Of a stretch of DNA of 25,468 nucleotides, positions 4,451-21,422 are shown piece by piece. Within the stretch, counting starts at the first letter, position 1. Every line of letters starts with the position of its first letter. A program made the position numbers and the translations under genes. The notes under the pieces are model-generated. The model made no database searches, had not been told where the DNA came from, and saw nothing but the letters and a program-made list of their open reading frames with translations. Source of the DNA: a virus; IMG/VR virus record IMGVR_UViG_3300047562_000109, positions 1 through 25,468 of that record; one strand, 5' to 3'.

Positions 4451-4608
4451 TGTGTTACCTCGTCTTCGTACATGTTTACATAAGAGTAATTGTTACTCAT
4501 GATTTTAGCAAATGCTCTGGCAGTTTCATACTCCTCAAAGCACTTGATACTTTCTGGACTAACTTGCCCCACGACGTTGTTAGTCCAGGTCACAACCCAC
4601 ACGTTCAT
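4438..4608 (-). CDS. Small conserved-looking protein between gp43 and uvsX (56 aa)
   Basis: A 56-residue ORF not assigned to a family. The start ATG at 4608 overlaps the gp43 stop as ATGA, and its TAG end overlaps uvsX by 13 bp. That is the same packing as all real genes here. The composition is protein-like: an N-terminal beta-rich stretch (MNVWVVTWTNN) is followed by a likely helix (CFEEYETARAFAKIMSNN). The pattern recalls small cyanophage proteins in which an aromatic-rich strand precedes an E-T-A-R-x-F helix. No function is proposed. Confidence 0.7.
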   Translation of the reverse strand: MNVWVVTWTNNVVGQVSPESIKCFEEYETARAFAKIMSNNYSYVNMYEDEVTQWDS

Positions 4609-7094
4609 TCAAAAAAGCTCCCGATCGATACTTTCTTTTCATGTGTCCATCCAATACATTCTAGCACATTTTTGAGCGGTTCCAGGAAGGACTTCTCAAA
4701 CTGTGTTGTGTAGTCCACGTATTTCTCAAGACCAAATTCGGATGGCAGTTCACCAAAGAAACTAATACAGTTCTCGTGGATGGGGTTTGGTGTCTTGAGA
4801 TACATGAACTTGATCTTCTCACCCTCCTGGATAAGTGGATGCTTGTTCTCAATCTTATACTTTTTGATGTAATGATTGTAGAGAAGAGCTCCTCTTACTT
4901 GGATGGGGGTTCCTTTCTTGTAGATCTCTGTGGGGTGGCGATACTTTGCCAGATTGTTGACGCCTCGTGGGAAAGCGACTTCGTTGTATGGACGTTGCCT
5001 CGTCTCTGTTCGGACATCATCGATAAAATTGATAAGTTCATCATTTGTCTTGCCGATAATAATCTTAAACGCTGCATACAATTTATCTCTGAAATAAGCT
5101 GGTGTAGAAGATCTGGCAGTCTCAAGACCCATGATCTTCATCTTGGGTTCTTTATATCTAACACCTTCGCTATCCCATACATTTAGAATGTAACGCTTCT
5201 TCGCAGTCCAGATACCACGATCAGCGATATTCTCACGCTTCATTTGCATCTTTTGCTGATACGCCGAAACGTAATCTGCCAGTTCCTGATAAGACTGTTC
5301 GATGAACGGTTCCAGTTTTTCCTGGCAAATCTTATCGAGAATAGAAACAATCGCTGCTTTATCGCCAGACTTGTTGCTGAAGAATTTAGTAACAAGAGGT
5401 CCAAGATTTAGATAGATGCTATCTGTGTCAGATGCGATGACATAATCTACATCATCAGTCTGCAAAAGATTATTTAGATACTCGTTCATTTTGTTCTCAA
5501 TCCAGCGGATAGAGAGCTGACCAGAAAGAGTAATCGCTTCTGCGTTAGCAAGACGATAGTATCGGAAGTGTTCGTTACCGATGGCACCATAGGCAGAGTT
5601 GAGAGAGATCTTACGTGCCATCTGAATGTTATTACAGCGGGCGATCTCTTTCATCAATTCAACAGTAGGAGTTTTCTCATACTGCTTCTTTGCCTCAAGC
5701 ATCTTCTTCTTGAAGATCACACGACCGTCATACATCTTCTTCATCATCTGAGGAAGAAAACCATGAACATCTTTGCGATACTGTGCGCCATTAGGACACA
5801 CAGCAAACTCACCGTCGATCTCAATCTGTTTGTTCAGGAACCCTTCAACAGTCGCACTGGGATGGCGAGTTTCCCTGAGTGTCTCTGGGGAAATGTTGTA
5901 TTGCATAATCAGGTGAGGATAAAGTGAGTTCAAATCAAAACTTACCACGTAATCATAAAACCCAGGAATCGGTTCTTTGACATAGGCACCTGCATACTTC
6001 TCAGTCTTAGTCGCTTCCTTCTTTGGCGGGATAGCAATCTTACGCTTCAAGAGTTCCACGTAAATATAGTTATCCCACATACGAACTTGACTAAACACAT
6101 CTTCATAATTCACCTTGGCATCATACGCCATAGTGAATGCCAGTTCAATCAGTTTCATCTTGTCATCAAGTTGATCGACAAGGCGAACGTCATGGATGTT
6201 GTATTCAATAAACTTTTGCCAGTCGTTCTCGTAGAACTCTTTGAAGGTGTCAAACTCAGAGTGATCTAGCTTCTTGGCACCAAGTTCCACATTACAAATG
6301 TGATCAAGGCGATAACTCTCTTGGTTTGTATAAGTAAATTTCTTATACAGTTCCAGATAGTCTAGACAGGAGATGCCAAGAGTATCGATAGCAAACTGCT
6401 TACGACCTTTGATAAAGATCTCACGGCGAGATACCAGTTTCCATGGAGAAAGAAGTTTTGTGAATTTCTCTCCCAGAACACGATCAATACGATTGTGAAT
6501 GTACGGCATATCGAATAGCTGTACATTCCAACCAGTAATTACATCAGGATAATTCTCCTGCCAATAATCCAGGAAGGCACCCAACATGCTTTCTTCTGAT
6601 CGGAAATGCATGTAATCCACCATGGCATCTCTGTTATCAAATGCTCTCGCTCCGAACACAGTAATCCGACCAGAGAAACTATCTTTGATCGAGATTGCCA
6701 ATATTTCCTGATCTGCAGTTTCGATATCAGGGAAACCGTTTTCGGCAGCGGTTTCAATATCGATTGTAAATACACGGATCTTGCTGCTGTCAAACTTCAC
6801 CTCCTCTTCAGGATGTTCCTCAGCAATATACTGATAAAGAAAGCGAGTGTTACCGTAGATCTCAAAGTCATCAACTTCCTTATACTGCTTCACGAAATCC
6901 CGTGCCTCAGTAATGGAACCGAACTTATGAGGTTCTACACACTCGCCTTCAAGGGTGCGCCATTCAGAATAGTTCTTTGTGGGCATATACAGCGTAGGGT
7001 TGAAAGGAACCCTGACGCTGTAACGATTGCCATTTTCATAACCACGGACTAGCAAACGGTTGCCAGCTTGTTCAACGTTTGTGTAAAACTTCAT
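4605..7094 (-). CDS. 43: gp43 DNA polymerase, family B
   Basis: An 829-residue family B replicative polymerase with 3'-5' proofreading. The exonuclease motifs are present: DIET (D112, E114), NVQLFD (D195) and YNIHD (Y298, D302). The polymerase motifs are also intact: A, DLNSLYP (D387); B, KISLNSAYG (495-503); and C, ASDTDS (D556, D558). All catalytic acids are therefore visible. T4 gp43 is 898 residues; this one is somewhat shorter, as is usual for cyanophage versions. Start ATG 7094 overlaps the stop of the upstream Sm-like gene as ATGA, so translation is likely coupled. RegA, which represses T4 gp43 translation, is encoded 1.5 kb upstream. Confidence 0.96.
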   Translation of the reverse strand: MKFYTNVEQAGNRLLVRGYENGNRYSVRVPFNPTLYMPTKNYSEWRTLEGECVEPHKFGSITEARDFVKQYKEVDDFEIYGNTRFLYQYIAEEHPEEEVKFDSSKIRVFTIDIETAAENGFPDIETADQEILAISIKDSFSGRITVFGARAFDNRDAMVDYMHFRSEESMLGAFLDYWQENYPDVITGWNVQLFDMPYIHNRIDRVLGEKFTKLLSPWKLVSRREIFIKGRKQFAIDTLGISCLDYLELYKKFTYTNQESYRLDHICNVELGAKKLDHSEFDTFKEFYENDWQKFIEYNIHDVRLVDQLDDKMKLIELAFTMAYDAKVNYEDVFSQVRMWDNYIYVELLKRKIAIPPKKEATKTEKYAGAYVKEPIPGFYDYVVSFDLNSLYPHLIMQYNISPETLRETRHPSATVEGFLNKQIEIDGEFAVCPNGAQYRKDVHGFLPQMMKKMYDGRVIFKKKMLEAKKQYEKTPTVELMKEIARCNNIQMARKISLNSAYGAIGNEHFRYYRLANAEAITLSGQLSIRWIENKMNEYLNNLLQTDDVDYVIASDTDSIYLNLGPLVTKFFSNKSGDKAAIVSILDKICQEKLEPFIEQSYQELADYVSAYQQKMQMKRENIADRGIWTAKKRYILNVWDSEGVRYKEPKMKIMGLETARSSTPAYFRDKLYAAFKIIIGKTNDELINFIDDVRTETRQRPYNEVAFPRGVNNLAKYRHPTEIYKKGTPIQVRGALLYNHYIKKYKIENKHPLIQEGEKIKFMYLKTPNPIHENCISFFGELPSEFGLEKYVDYTTQFEKSFLEPLKNVLECIGWTHEKKVSIGSFFE

Positions 7095-7363
7095 TCAGAC
7101 TTTGGCGGTTCTATTTTACAAAGGTAAGCAGCAAGTAACTTGGTGCTCGGGTTCACGATAGTGAAGATATCAGTAGATCTGACAACTGCTTCCCTGTCAC
7201 CAGAGTGCGGAGGCCAGGGATATATCTCACCATCACATTTTACCAGATATGGATCGGTCAGGATACAATCAGGGTCACCTGGCAAAGTGTCCCCTGGTAC
7301 TTCTGACACCTGAGCGATGATCCACTCATTCGCCAGCTTCAGCAGGTTCGCTGTTATTTCCAT
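7091..7363 (-). CDS. Sm-like small protein, paralogue C (90 aa)
   Basis: A 90-residue protein, the shortest of three tandem paralogues. It shares the family pattern: LANEWIIAQVSEV near the N-terminus, a D-P-Y strand (ILTDPYL), then STDIFTIVNPSTKLLAAY, matching the I-x-T-I-x-N-P...AY end of paralogue A. The pattern fits the Sm/LSm-like beta barrel that I recall being reported from structure for a protein family of putative cyanophage origin. RNA or DNA binding would be the inferred role. The start at 7363 has GAGG six bases upstream. It overlaps paralogue B by 38 bp and gp43 by 4 bp. Its base composition is near 50% GC, unlike the AT-rich paralogues upstream. Confidence 0.75.
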   Translation of the reverse strand: MEITANLLKLANEWIIAQVSEVPGDTLPGDPDCILTDPYLVKCDGEIYPWPPHSGDREAVVRSTDIFTIVNPSTKLLAAYLCKIEPPKSE

Positions 7364-7712
7364 CAGTCACCTCAGGATAAAAAAGTTGTTCATCAGTAAA
7401 TCCAAATTGCTTTAATTCACTTGCATAATTATCAACAATTCCATTATCTGGATAAACAACACTGATAATATGATCACCAGAAATTCTGTGTTCTTGAACT
7501 GGACTATATGGACACCATCTAGAATATTTAATTGGGATAGTTCCATCTCCATTAGTTTCACCAAGACTCAAGGAATATGGATAAATTAATCGGTATCCAA
7601 CTACCCTCTCATCATCTTTAACTTCACCAAACAAGCAAAGAATTCTTTCTCCCGTGGTGATAGTTACTACTCTAATATTATGATTAGTTTTCAGTTGAGT
7701 CGCTTCTGTCAT
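7326..7712 (-). CDS. Sm-like small protein, paralogue B (128 aa)
   Basis: A 128-residue protein with the same layout as its neighbours: ITTGERILCLFGEV, then LIYPYSLSL, then IKYSRWCPYSP and HIISVVYPDNGIVDNY. A longer acidic tail ends in many E, D and N residues. I place it in the cyanophage Sm-like (LSm-fold) family by comparison with paralogues A, C and D in this window. Function is unknown, and nucleic-acid binding is an inference from the fold. ATG 7712 is preferred to an upstream in-frame TTG at 7718. It overlaps the paralogue A end by 29 bp. The region is very AT-rich; one 60-base line is about 25% GC. Confidence 0.78.
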   Translation of the reverse strand: MTEATQLKTNHNIRVVTITTGERILCLFGEVKDDERVVGYRLIYPYSLSLGETNGDGTIPIKYSRWCPYSPVQEHRISGDHIISVVYPDNGIVDNYASELKQFGFTDEQLFYPEVTDGNNSEPAEAGE

Positions 7713-8037
7713 TTTCAATTTCTCTTTTTTGTGTAATTTTATTTTCGTATGCTTTCTGCAATCCTGGTTCAGGATTACTGATTGTCATTATAGAATCATA
7801 TGGGATTTTGTATTGCCAATCAGAAGAATATGGATTCCACTTACTGAATCTAATTTGATATTCTGATCCAATTTGTTCTGTTAGATATTGCGGAGTTGTT
7901 CCATCTAAAGTAAGAACATAAGGTTCTTCCATAAGAAGACAAATTCCTTTTTTGTCTTCACCCTCTCCATCGAAGATTTCCTTAAGCTCAGCAATAACAC
8001 GATCGCCAGTCTTTAAAGTAAGAATTGATACTGCCAT
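7684..8037 (-). CDS. Sm-like small protein, paralogue A (117 aa)
   Basis: A 117-residue protein, the first of three tandem paralogues. The conserved elements are LKTGDRVIAELKEI (residues ~7-20), MEEPYVLTL, IRFSKWNPYSSD, and DSIMTISNPEPGLQKAY, followed by a charged tail. The two-part pattern (G-D-x-V-I-A strand pair, then I-M-T-I) fits an Sm1/Sm2-like barrel. Sm-like rings bind RNA, so a role in phage or host RNA handling is plausible but unproven. The gene starts 33 bp downstream of the hsp20 terminator, so it begins a new transcription unit that continues into gp43. No convincing -35/-10 pair was found in the short gap. Confidence 0.78.
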   Translation of the reverse strand: MAVSILTLKTGDRVIAELKEIFDGEGEDKKGICLLMEEPYVLTLDGTTPQYLTEQIGSEYQIRFSKWNPYSSDWQYKIPYDSIMTISNPEPGLQKAYENKITQKREIENDRSDSTEN

Positions 8038-8069
8038 AGTTATAGTGAGTTTGATACTAGTGTAACATC

Positions 8070-8094
8070 AAAAAGGGGCACCGTCAAGTGCCCC
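8070..8094 (-). terminator. Intrinsic terminator after hsp20
   Basis: A perfect 7-bp stem pairs 8075-8081 (GGGGCAC) with 8088-8094 (GTGCCCC) around a 6-base loop. On the minus strand it is followed by TTTTT (8074-8070). It lies 11 nt past the hsp20 stop, in the right orientation to end that transcript. Confidence 0.85.
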
Positions 8095-8104
8095 GACATG
8101 ATAT

Positions 8105-8503
8105 TTAGAACCATTTCTTTTTCTTCTGTTTCTCTGGTAGTTCTTTTACCAAGACGATTGTAAGTAGTCCATCCTTAAAATCTACGCTCTCAACTTCAAC
8201 ATCGTCTGACATTTGCCAGTTGCGATTGAAAGATCTCTTGGAAATTCCTTTATGAGCGTAGTCTCTCTTGTCTTCTCCAGTCTTTGTAGCTGCTACTGAT
8301 AGAAGATGTCGTTCAGTTGTGACTTCAATTTCTTCAGAATTAAATCCTGCCAAAGCGACTTCAAGTATGGTTCTACCATCGTCTCCATTGACCACATTGT
8401 AAGGTGGGTAATTTGATCCACCTCCTGCAAGAGCTTCCAGTCTGCTGAATGTTTCATCAAAACCGATTGAATATGGTGTGTAAGTTTCCCAGTGAATTTT
8501 CAT
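8105..8503 (-). CDS. hsp20: Hsp20 small heat-shock protein (alpha-crystallin domain)
   Basis: A 132-residue small heat-shock protein. It has the IbpA-type start of the domain (YPPYNVV followed by ILEVALAGFNSEEIEV), the core strands with HLLSVAATK, the FNRNWQMSDDVEVESVDFKDGLLTI region and a lysine-rich C-terminus (KQKKKKWF). These proteins hold unfolding proteins in an ATP-independent way. In cyanophages hsp20 is nearly universal, and roles in capsid assembly or photosystem protection have been suggested but not settled. It is enclosed by terminators on both sides and so is likely its own transcript, with a TATAAT at 8554-8559 upstream. Confidence 0.93.
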   Translation of the reverse strand: MKIHWETYTPYSIGFDETFSRLEALAGGGSNYPPYNVVNGDDGRTILEVALAGFNSEEIEVTTERHLLSVAATKTGEDKRDYAHKGISKRSFNRNWQMSDDVEVESVDFKDGLLTIVLVKELPEKQKKKKWF

Positions 8504-8553
8504 TGTCCTAAAAAGCGACGTTTACATGTGACCCGTTAGGCATCACACTAATA

Positions 8554-8559
8554 ATTATA
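8554..8559 (-). promoter_or_regulatory. Candidate -10 element for hsp20
   Basis: On the minus strand there is a perfect TATAAT about 50 nt upstream of the hsp20 ATG, between the regA terminator and hsp20. No good -35 hexamer lies 17 nt upstream, where the terminator stem sits. If used, it would rely on the -10 alone or on an activator. The terminator just upstream makes a promoter here necessary for strong hsp20 expression. Confidence 0.45.
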
Positions 8560-8569
8560 CACATCCAAT

Positions 8570-8597
8570 AAAAAATGGGGGTGCTGAAAACCCCCAT
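8570..8597 (-). terminator. Intrinsic terminator after regA
   Basis: A stem pairs 8575-8581 with 8591-8597 (ATGGGGG/CCCCCAT, 7 bp) around a loop of 9 bases. It is followed on the minus strand by a run of T at 8575-8570, part of which also pairs with the stem base. It lies 13 nt after the regA stop and ends the clamp/clamp-loader transcript. Confidence 0.85.
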
Positions 8598-8609
8598 AAA
8601 CACTACGGT

Positions 8610-9035
8610 TTATTCTACCGCAGTCTTTTTCCTACCAATGTTGTACTTACTCTCTAGAATCCAGTCATTCTTTTCTTTGAATGAAAGAACTTTGATTTGA
8701 TTTAGTGGAGCAAGATCAGCAATCTTTTCTACATTAACAATCGTAATCAATCCCCAGTCACTAAGAAGTTGAATAATTCTATTCCTACGCTGGACATCAT
8801 TCAACGATAGGTTTGTGTTCTTACCATCAAGGGCAAACAGCTCCTTGAAATGAACGATATAATACTTACCCTGTTTATGTAAGATATGGCAAGACTGATA
8901 GATCTTCTTTTCCTTGCGCGATGCTACTCCAATTCTAGTCAGAGTTTCTCTCACTTTGAGAAAGTCATCTGGTTCATTTAGAACCACTTCAACCATATCA
9001 GTTTGCTTCCACTGGATTTCAGTTTCGACACTCAT
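8610..9035 (-). CDS. regA: RegA translational repressor
   Basis: A 141-residue homologue of T4 RegA (122 residues), an RNA-binding protein that blocks translation starts of early phage mRNAs including its own and those of the replication genes. The diagnostic stretches are EPDDFLKVRETLTRIGVA, YQSCHILHKQGKYYIVHFKE and LLSDWGLI, in the same order as T4. The extra length is an N-terminal extension of about 14 residues and a basic tail (NIGRKKTAVE). The start overlaps the gp62 stop as ATGA. In T4 the order 45-44-62-regA-43 is contiguous; here hsp20 and three Sm-like genes separate regA from 43. Confidence 0.95.
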   Translation of the reverse strand: MSVETEIQWKQTDMVEVVLNEPDDFLKVRETLTRIGVASRKEKKIYQSCHILHKQGKYYIVHFKELFALDGKNTNLSLNDVQRRNRIIQLLSDWGLITIVNVEKIADLAPLNQIKVLSFKEKNDWILESKYNIGRKKTAVE

Positions 9036-20166: not shown

Positions 20167-20390
20167 AATTTACCTCCAACAGTTCCATCATATGATTCAG
20201 ACGATTGGGAGTTTGCCCAATTGGTTGCTTTACCTTCCAAGTAGAATTTCGTTCCGTCCATGACAATTTGCCTCGTAAGTCCTGTGATGTATTCCTCGCC
20301 ATTCTCACCATAGCTAGTCCACGTTCCAAACCGTTTCTGTTGAATTCGGAATTTTCCATAGGGTGTTTCAATCCATTCATAATCACTCAT
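20163..20390 (-). CDS. Small unknown protein between gp55 and gp47 (75 aa)
   Basis: A 75-residue protein, not assigned. It starts MSDYEWIETPYGKFRIQQKR and is rich in aromatic and polar residues, with alternating strands (TWTSYGENGEEYITGLTRQI, KFYLEGKATNW). That suggests a small beta protein. ATGA overlaps at both ends with gp55 and gp47 make a true coding gene very likely. Its tail encodes the strong GGAGG ribosome binding site of gp47. Confidence 0.75.
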   Translation of the reverse strand: MSDYEWIETPYGKFRIQQKRFGTWTSYGENGEEYITGLTRQIVMDGTKFYLEGKATNWANSQSSESYDGTVGGKL

Positions 20391-20881
20391 CGGTTCATTC
20401 TAGTTTCAATACTTTCTTTGATGCTACCCATGTCAGAATAAGAAGCGTTCATGCCAGACATTGTACCATCAAATGTGTCAGTGTGCATAACTTCGTCATA
20501 GCCTGAACGCTCTAGGATTTTTCCTTTGATTTCAAGTTGTTTCTTTTCTTTTTGTATGCGACGAAGAAATGCGTAGTAAATGATCTGAGTAAAATACGCA
20601 AAAGGGTTAGTGGATTTTTCTGGGTCAAAGTTATCAATATATTGTAAGCAGTTTTCAATTCCGTCGCAGATCATGTCCTCACGGAACATGTAATTGACAA
20701 AGTTTGGTTTGTAAGACAAGTGCGTAGCAATCTTTAAGAAACATTCTCCTAAGTAGTTTGTCACTCTAGGACGTGGTTTGCCTAATTCTTTGGAACGTTG
20801 AACTTTGTCACGATACTCCGTGATCGCAGCAAGGAAGTCCTTGTTATTGACGTAATTTTCTGTTTGCTTTTTTCTTGTCAT
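20387..20881 (-). CDS. 55: gp55 late-promoter sigma factor
   Basis: A 164-residue divergent sigma factor (T4 gp55, 185 residues) that directs host RNA polymerase to T4-type late promoters. The start MTRKKQTENYVNNKDFLAAI lines up directly with T4 (M...NYVNNKELLQAI). EDMICDGIENCLQYIDNFD and NPFAYFTQIIYYAFLRRIQKEKK match the region 2-like core. ATG 20881 gives this exact alignment; an in-frame GTG at 20896 with GAG nearby is the alternative. The late-promoter-like site at 23908-23915 would be its target. Confidence 0.94.
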   Translation of the reverse strand: MTRKKQTENYVNNKDFLAAITEYRDKVQRSKELGKPRPRVTNYLGECFLKIATHLSYKPNFVNYMFREDMICDGIENCLQYIDNFDPEKSTNPFAYFTQIIYYAFLRRIQKEKKQLEIKGKILERSGYDEVMHTDTFDGTMSGMNASYSDMGSIKESIETRMNR

Positions 20882-20896
20882 TACTGCGAATGTCAC

Positions 20897-21023
20897 GGTG
20901 TTCTCACATCATTTGTATCAAGTGTAGCATGGTAACGGTCATATGTAAAGGGGGGGGGGCTTGACACAACCTCAGAAACTTAGTAGAATAACTCTGTTAA
21001 GGGTTCAAGAGAAATAATAGCTT
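20897..21023 (-). promoter_or_regulatory. Non-coding gap upstream of gp55 with a possible early promoter
   Basis: This 127-bp gap is the longest in the window. On the minus strand TTACAT (20943-20948) and TACACT (20921-20926) are 16 bases apart, a modest match to -35 and -10 elements, and lead to the gp55 start about 40 bases on. A 10-base G run (20950-20959) lies just upstream. A second weak pair (TTGAAC and TACTAA, 17 apart, near 21008-20980) is possible. No small gene or strong terminator is seen. Confidence 0.4.
20950..20959. repeat. Homopolymer tract of ten G (ten C on the minus strand)
   Basis: A run of ten identical bases in the non-coding gap upstream of gp55, just upstream of the possible -35. 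It is the longest homopolymer I noticed in the window. It may vary in length by slippage, or it could be a sequencing artefact. Confidence 0.9.
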
Positions 21024-21422
21024 TTAGCTTTTCTTATAGATATCTTCTAAAGACTTTTTCACCTCTTTTATTGAACCCAGATATCCAGATCTTCTAGGTA
21101 ATTTATCCCCTCTTCCTGCTAGAGTTTTTCCACTCTCTAATCGGTTGAGGGTTTTTTCATAAAAATCTACAATCTCACCTTCAATCTCTGTCATAGTCAT
21201 GATGTGAGTTCTATCAACAACAAACATACTATCAAAGGTGGCAGAGATCCATTCTTTCAAGGCGAATCCTGTCACCTCCATGTTTCCTTTCTTTTGTTTA
21301 GCATTCTCAACTGCTAGCGGTCGATCTAACATTATCTTGTCTTCATCGGGAAGGTAGAAGACTTTAGCTACTACCTCTTCCCCAGATATTAATTTCAACG
21401 TTGCATAAAATTCTTCTTCCAT
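21024..21422 (-). CDS. Sm-like protein, distal paralogue D (132 aa)
   Basis: A 132-residue protein with the family layout of the three tandem Sm-like genes near gp43. It has TLKLISGEEVVAKVFYL near the N-terminus, then MLDRPLAVE, FALKEWISATFD, and THIMTMTEIEGEIVDFY, followed by a basic, helical tail of about 40 residues (LESGKTLAGRGDKLPRRSGY region). I therefore call it a distant Sm-like member; this is my own comparison. It follows uvsW by 2 nt and is the last gene before the gap upstream of gp55. Confidence 0.75.
   Translation of the reverse strand: MEEEFYATLKLISGEEVVAKVFYLPDEDKIMLDRPLAVENAKQKKGNMEVTGFALKEWISATFDSMFVVDRTHIMTMTEIEGEIVDFYEKTLNRLESGKTLAGRGDKLPRRSGYLGSIKEVKKSLEDIYKKS

Follow-up and report, generated by a model that had tools for sequence, protein, structure and literature searches.

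Tandem Sm-like genes ahead of the DNA polymerase gene of T4-like cyanophages and their probable link to polymerase translation

Three adjacent genes immediately ahead of the DNA polymerase gene gp43, here called A, B and C, belong as diverged paralogues to a single Sm-like family, and translation of gp43 is probably coupled to that of gene C by termination-reinitiation. They lie in a 25.5 kb virus record, the whole of which (25,468 nucleotides) is referred to as the window. Since, among annotated phages, Synechococcus phage S-RSM4 (Kyanoviridae, Gibbetvirus) comes closest over gp43-gp62, with 81% DNA identity across 4.8 kb, we regard the window as a fragment of a T4-like cyanophage. The protein family had already been described, at minimum in the form of domains of unknown function; the new part is the conserved tandem multi-gene arrangement together with the proposed coupling to gp43. 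Family, fold, synteny, overlaps, Shine-Dalgarno pattern and promoter conservation were computed, and from these we infer the coupling. As a joint explanation we consider it fairly probable that A, B, C and gp43 form one expression unit, in which gp43 is coupled to C, hairpins tune this step and the Sm-like proteins form small rings. The loci compared below were retrieved with window-like queries, so that close relatives are over-represented and the counts lean towards the kin of the window.

Three Sm-like paralogues ahead of gp43

The genes of the region are as follows.
4605..7094, minus strand: gp43, DNA polymerase, the final gene, reached by reading through the Sm-like cassette with its overlaps
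7091..7363, minus strand: gene C, Sm-like paralogue (phrog_483, DUF6561; 90 aa)
7326..7712, minus strand: gene B, Sm-like paralogue (phrog_431; 128 aa; 29 nt overlap with A)
7684..8037, minus strand: gene A, Sm-like paralogue (phrog_431, DUF6561; 117 aa, pI 4.5)
8105..8503, minus strand: hsp20, between regA and A (Pfam search)
8610..9035, minus strand: regA (Pfam search)

The first-pass annotation had read the minus-strand open reading frames at 7091-8037 as three tandem paralogues ahead of gp43, and the Pfam and profile-profile comparisons agree with it. Both A (E-value 3.4e-7) and C (4.6e-19) scored over the cut-off of PF20198 (DUF6561); B fell under the curated cut-off (0.0021), and its homology to A reached 5.6e-21 in the profile-profile comparison. 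The corresponding E-values were about 1e-12 for A and C and about 1e-7 for B and C, compared with 0.0067 or worse for unrelated families of the same loci, and the homology is thus beyond chance. The shared motifs quoted in that annotation are complete in A, but B and C each deviate: the end motif of B reads IISVVYP...NY, the opening turn of C is without TG (LKLANEWIIAQV), and the tryptophan motif of C is PWPPHS. The C-terminal tail of B is acidic and predicted to be disordered. The acidic tails of B (7326-7370) and, less so, of A (7684-7720) are encoded within the overlap regions, and are reminiscent of those on other ring proteins.

When each protein was used in a profile search, 3by7 was the top PDB match for all three (A, 4.7e-9; B, 6.8e-4; C, 3.1e-8). 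AlphaFold models of B and C, built from viral contig sequences (pLDDT 83.7 and 89.9, respectively), have six strands and a C-terminal helix. In Foldseek searches with both models, 3by7 and its designed derivative TIP60 ranked first, followed by spliceosomal Sm, Lsm and archaeal SmAP proteins; the B model superimposed on 3by7 with a TMt of 0.91 and an rmsd of 1.2, and the C model with a TM of about 0.7-0.8. The resemblance to a pentameric Sm-like structure that was proposed in the first pass is therefore borne out by profile for A, B and C and by model for B and C. The possibility that these proteins lack a small Sm-type barrel does not hold for B and C, because their models match 3by7 and Sm/Lsm/SmAP proteins, and A is placed by its profile match. 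The depositors of 3by7 reportedly described a pentamer and suggested nucleic-acid binding.

3by7, PF16243, PF20198 and the proteins described here agree in the order of their strands, in having a C-terminal helix and in the W-x-P-Y-S/T segment. Whereas 3by7 is a single ocean-metagenome protein, the window carries three diverged tandem copies with probable coupling to gp43. Hfq, Sm, Lsm and SmAP rings share with B and C the small Sm-type beta-barrel found by Foldseek; unlike them, the window proteins have a C-terminal helix, have no N-terminal helix and are acidic, and no Sm1 motif was seen. Pfam DUF6561 and PHROGs phrog_431, 483 and 527 are listed as of unknown function. A cellular origin of the family was considered and set aside, as a single scan of genome contigs returned no relative. 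GC530 of P-HM2, a candidate further Sm-like gene, was dropped because it gave no profile match.

The arrangement regA-hsp20-(A)(B)C-gp43 is almost universal among 418 annotated loci surveyed for gene order, and nearly all sampled loci have two or three Sm-like genes immediately ahead of gp43. Complete cassettes contain three (n=90), two (n=79) or one (n=2) Sm-like genes. S-RSM4 and its relatives share the regA-hsp20-A-B-C-gp43 order of the window, and in the S-RSM4 annotation the Sm-like genes are hypothetical proteins. The C gene of S-RSM4 is annotated too short, with 46 codons from 8194 (L005:8194-8334); the conserved start is at 8077.

Transcription and translation of the A-B-C-gp43 unit

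The elements that bear on the expression of the cassette are as follows.
8075..8094, minus strand: intrinsic terminator hairpin 3' of hsp20 (z -4.3)
8059..8087, minus strand: sigma70-like promoter inside the terminator (-35 TTGACG at 8082-8087, 17-nt spacer, -10 TACACT at 8059-8064)
7368..7373, minus strand: Shine-Dalgarno of C (GAGGTG), within B (duplex energy -9.9 kcal/mol)
7326..7363, minus strand: B/C overlap, 38 nt
7091..7094, minus strand: overlap of the C stop and the gp43 start, ATGA, 4 nt; gp43 has no Shine-Dalgarno

The -35 box is located in the loop and 3' arm of the terminator hairpin. Of the 103 unique intergenic regions, 97 combine a -35 box with TAnnnT at a spacing of 16-18 nt, which is exactly 17 nt in 96 of them, compared with 1.3% of shuffled intergenic sequences. 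A-B-C-gp43 thus probably has its own promoter, as judged from this sequence conservation. RegA had been noted as lying upstream, in an order thought to suggest control of the replication genes at the RNA level; the gene is indeed close by, but hsp20, the terminator and the conserved promoter intervene before A. Because this conserved promoter is nested in the post-hsp20 terminator, RegA is probably in another unit, and a single transcription unit of RegA and A-B-C is unlikely, as the conserved terminator-promoter element separates them.

The B/C overlap is 38 nt long in 92 of 100 unique cassettes, and the Shine-Dalgarno duplex of C has a median energy of -6.9 kcal/mol over 201 C genes. At 220 of 233 unique loci, the end of C runs 1-11 nt into gp43, most commonly as ATGA. 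For gp43, the median Shine-Dalgarno duplex energy is -0.6, against a random background mean of -2.3. The ATGA overlap, the strong ribosome-binding site of C and the absence of one for gp43 led us to propose that gp43 translation is probably coupled to C. Transcription of A-B-C-gp43 would start at the dedicated sigma70-type promoter inside the post-hsp20 terminator, and translation of C would begin at the strong ribosome-binding site that it has within B. Ribosomes finishing C would then restart at the ATGA overlap, as the presumed main route of gp43 translation, so that the Sm-like C protein and the polymerase would be made together.

These junctions also bear on a reading in which A and B arose by recent duplication and do little, and only the position of C matters, as a leader metering gp43 translation. 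Two-gene cassettes are common (79), and the C-gp43 junction is steadier than the A-B junction, as this reading would have it. Purifying selection acts on both A (dN 0.20, dS 1.12) and B (dN 0.27, dS 1.13) between the window and S-RSM4, however, and the three-gene cassette persists over many metagenomic genomes, and we consider it quite improbable that A and B are dispensable in this way.

RNA hairpins near the end of C

Two hairpin positions were located within C; at both of them the structure is strong in relatives but weak in the window itself.
7126..7148, minus strand: HP2
7168..7184, minus strand: HP1

With codon-preserving shuffles of the 258-nt C genes in the clade of the window, a z of -2.3 was obtained for HP1, which lies 55-85 nt from the end of C, and the last 36 nt of C were unusually open (z +1.7). 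The HP2 window gave z -2.0 to -2.3 across the whole clade. Since z values of -1.7 to -2.0 also occur in single control windows of other genes, folding energy alone gives weak support for the hairpins, and the copies of the window itself are weak (z -0.65). In HP1 and HP2 together, 95.2% of cells were paired, compared with at most 41.6% in sliding controls, and 22 cells were double-changed, compared with 13.2 in shuffles, a count from related sequences that is uncorrected for kinship. The innermost pair of HP2 alternates between C-G and G-C, and the codons of the HP2 stem are nearly fixed synonymously, at 0.00-0.09 of the expected value, compared with 0.8-0.9 for adjacent codons. Where a Leu in HP1 is changed to Ile, the hairpin re-forms in another register. 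Neither HP1 nor HP2 was present in the Syn9/S-ShM2-type clade, and an Rfam search of 6900-8700 returned no match. In the clade of the window, the two hairpins at the 3' end of C, after which the start region is unstructured, probably adjust the restart.

In T4, gp43 regulates its own translation by binding an operator that overlaps its ribosome-binding site and includes an RNA hairpin some 40 nt ahead of the start (PMC3014915). As in the autogenous control of gene 43 in T4 and RB69, a candidate hairpin-bearing element lies just upstream of the gp43 start in the clade of the window; in contrast to T4, the leader is coding sequence, namely gene C, and gp43 has no Shine-Dalgarno. The HP1 and HP2 loops vary and gave no match to the UAAC loop of T4/RB69. 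A T4-type operator loop at gp43 was therefore ruled out, since the loop sequences are not conserved, and because the loops differ, the likeness to the T4 hairpin operator is one of place only.

Possible roles of the Sm-like proteins and the wider family

A fourth Sm-like paralogue, which the first-pass annotation did not mention, lies elsewhere in the window.
21024..21422, minus strand: gene D, Sm-like paralogue (PF16243, Sm_like, over cut-off; phrog_471)

The profile-profile E-values of D were 4.6e-6 to C and 1.7e-4 to A. D is acidic in its core and basic in its C-terminal tail, and its identity across relatives, 72-94%, is far above the conservation of A-C. It lies directly downstream of uvsW, and 77 of the 80 D loci share this order. 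Whole-genome searches of ten cyanophages recovered Sm-like genes at gp43 and one D-type gene elsewhere in every case. On the other side of D in the window, a gene resembling the late sigma factor gp55 occupies 20387-20896, and between the two genes, at ~20940-20960, a run of about ten C (minus strand) adjoins promoter-like sequences on both strands.

Some cyanophages (ACG-2014f, S-CAM1) carry a further Sm-like gene, of the phrog_527 type, in the gp44-gp62 interval (L427:1300-1590; L012:1923-2210). Phages of Stenotrophomonas, Xanthomonas, Acidovorax and Variovorax also have candidate distant relatives in the dut-gp43 interval, just upstream of gp43 (L424:2329-2595, L429:3992-4264, L430:3989-4318 and L431:3977-4288). 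C matched this proteobacterial-phage set at 6.9e-6 to 9.6e-7, and the Acidovorax phage candidate matched phrog_527 at 6e-5; a direct search with the C profile did not find the Stenotrophomonas, Xanthomonas, Acidovorax and Variovorax candidates. Their kinship to the Sm-like family is probable from these profile matches, and these proteobacterial T4-like candidates suggest that the gene slot before gp43 is older than the cyanophages. No Sm-like relative was found in Tequatrovirus, Ochrobactrum phage OC or Vibrio phage D485.

Small rings are the most likely form of the Sm-like proteins, and they would act either on the expression of replication genes or on the replication machinery. The former corresponds to the first-pass proposal that A, B and C could build a mixed ring or serve as three different regulators that bind RNA, taken here as Hfq-like control of replication mRNAs in trans. 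The Sm fold, the neighbourhood of RegA and gp43, the hairpins in the gp43 leader, the precedent of hairpin control of T4 gp43 (PMC3014915) and the VRSxDI turn that C keeps at the Sm2 position are all in its favour. The composition of the proteins points the other way. The pI values of A, B and C are 4.4-4.6 (homologue medians: A, 4.5; B, 4.5; C, 4.4), and all of their aligned homologues are net negative, whereas RegA and gp62 of the same cluster have pI values of about 9.1-9.2. Searches with the LSM/Hfq models of Pfam and NCBIfam, at E up to 1, gave no match for the Sm-like proteins of the window, and inspection of the alignments and models by eye revealed no Sm1-type D-x-x-x-N loop, with the Sm2 turn reading VRSxDI in C and ISGDHI in B. 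The hairpin loop sequence is, in addition, not conserved. The acidic composition argues against RNA binding by A, B and C without excluding it, and we hold regulation in trans as a tentative possibility. RNA-level control of gp43, as put forward in the first pass, is retained through the cis features, namely the probable coupled translation and the C hairpins, but is weakened on the side of the proteins, which are acidic and in which Sm1 was unseen.

Because A, B and C are acidic, match no LSM/Hfq model and show no Sm1 loop, it is about as likely as RNA regulation that A, B, C and D are acidic ring scaffolds which bind replication or recombination proteins (gp43, the clamp loader, UvsW) rather than RNA, a reading we likewise place below even chances. 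Besides the acidic composition, the positions of the relatives agree with it, as they adjoin gp43 (A, B, C), uvsW (D) and the gp44-gp62 interval (phrog_527 type), although proximity within the replication cluster does not show contact. It is unlikely, in our estimate, that an A/B/C ring binds the two hairpins of C and gates the gp43 restart, so as to replace the polymerase autorepression of T4 with an Sm autogenous circuit.

Taken together, phrog_431, 483, 471 and 527 are united in one Sm-like family, and Sm-like genes precede the DNA polymerase gene in nearly all sampled loci of the T4-like cyanophages, which are marine and abundant. The leader region that T4 uses for gp43 control is coding sequence in these phages, and the probable dependence of gp43 on the translation of C offers a testable route to how T4-like cyanophages set their polymerase levels. 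If the rings do bind RNA, they would represent a phage-encoded, Sm-based regulator of replication.
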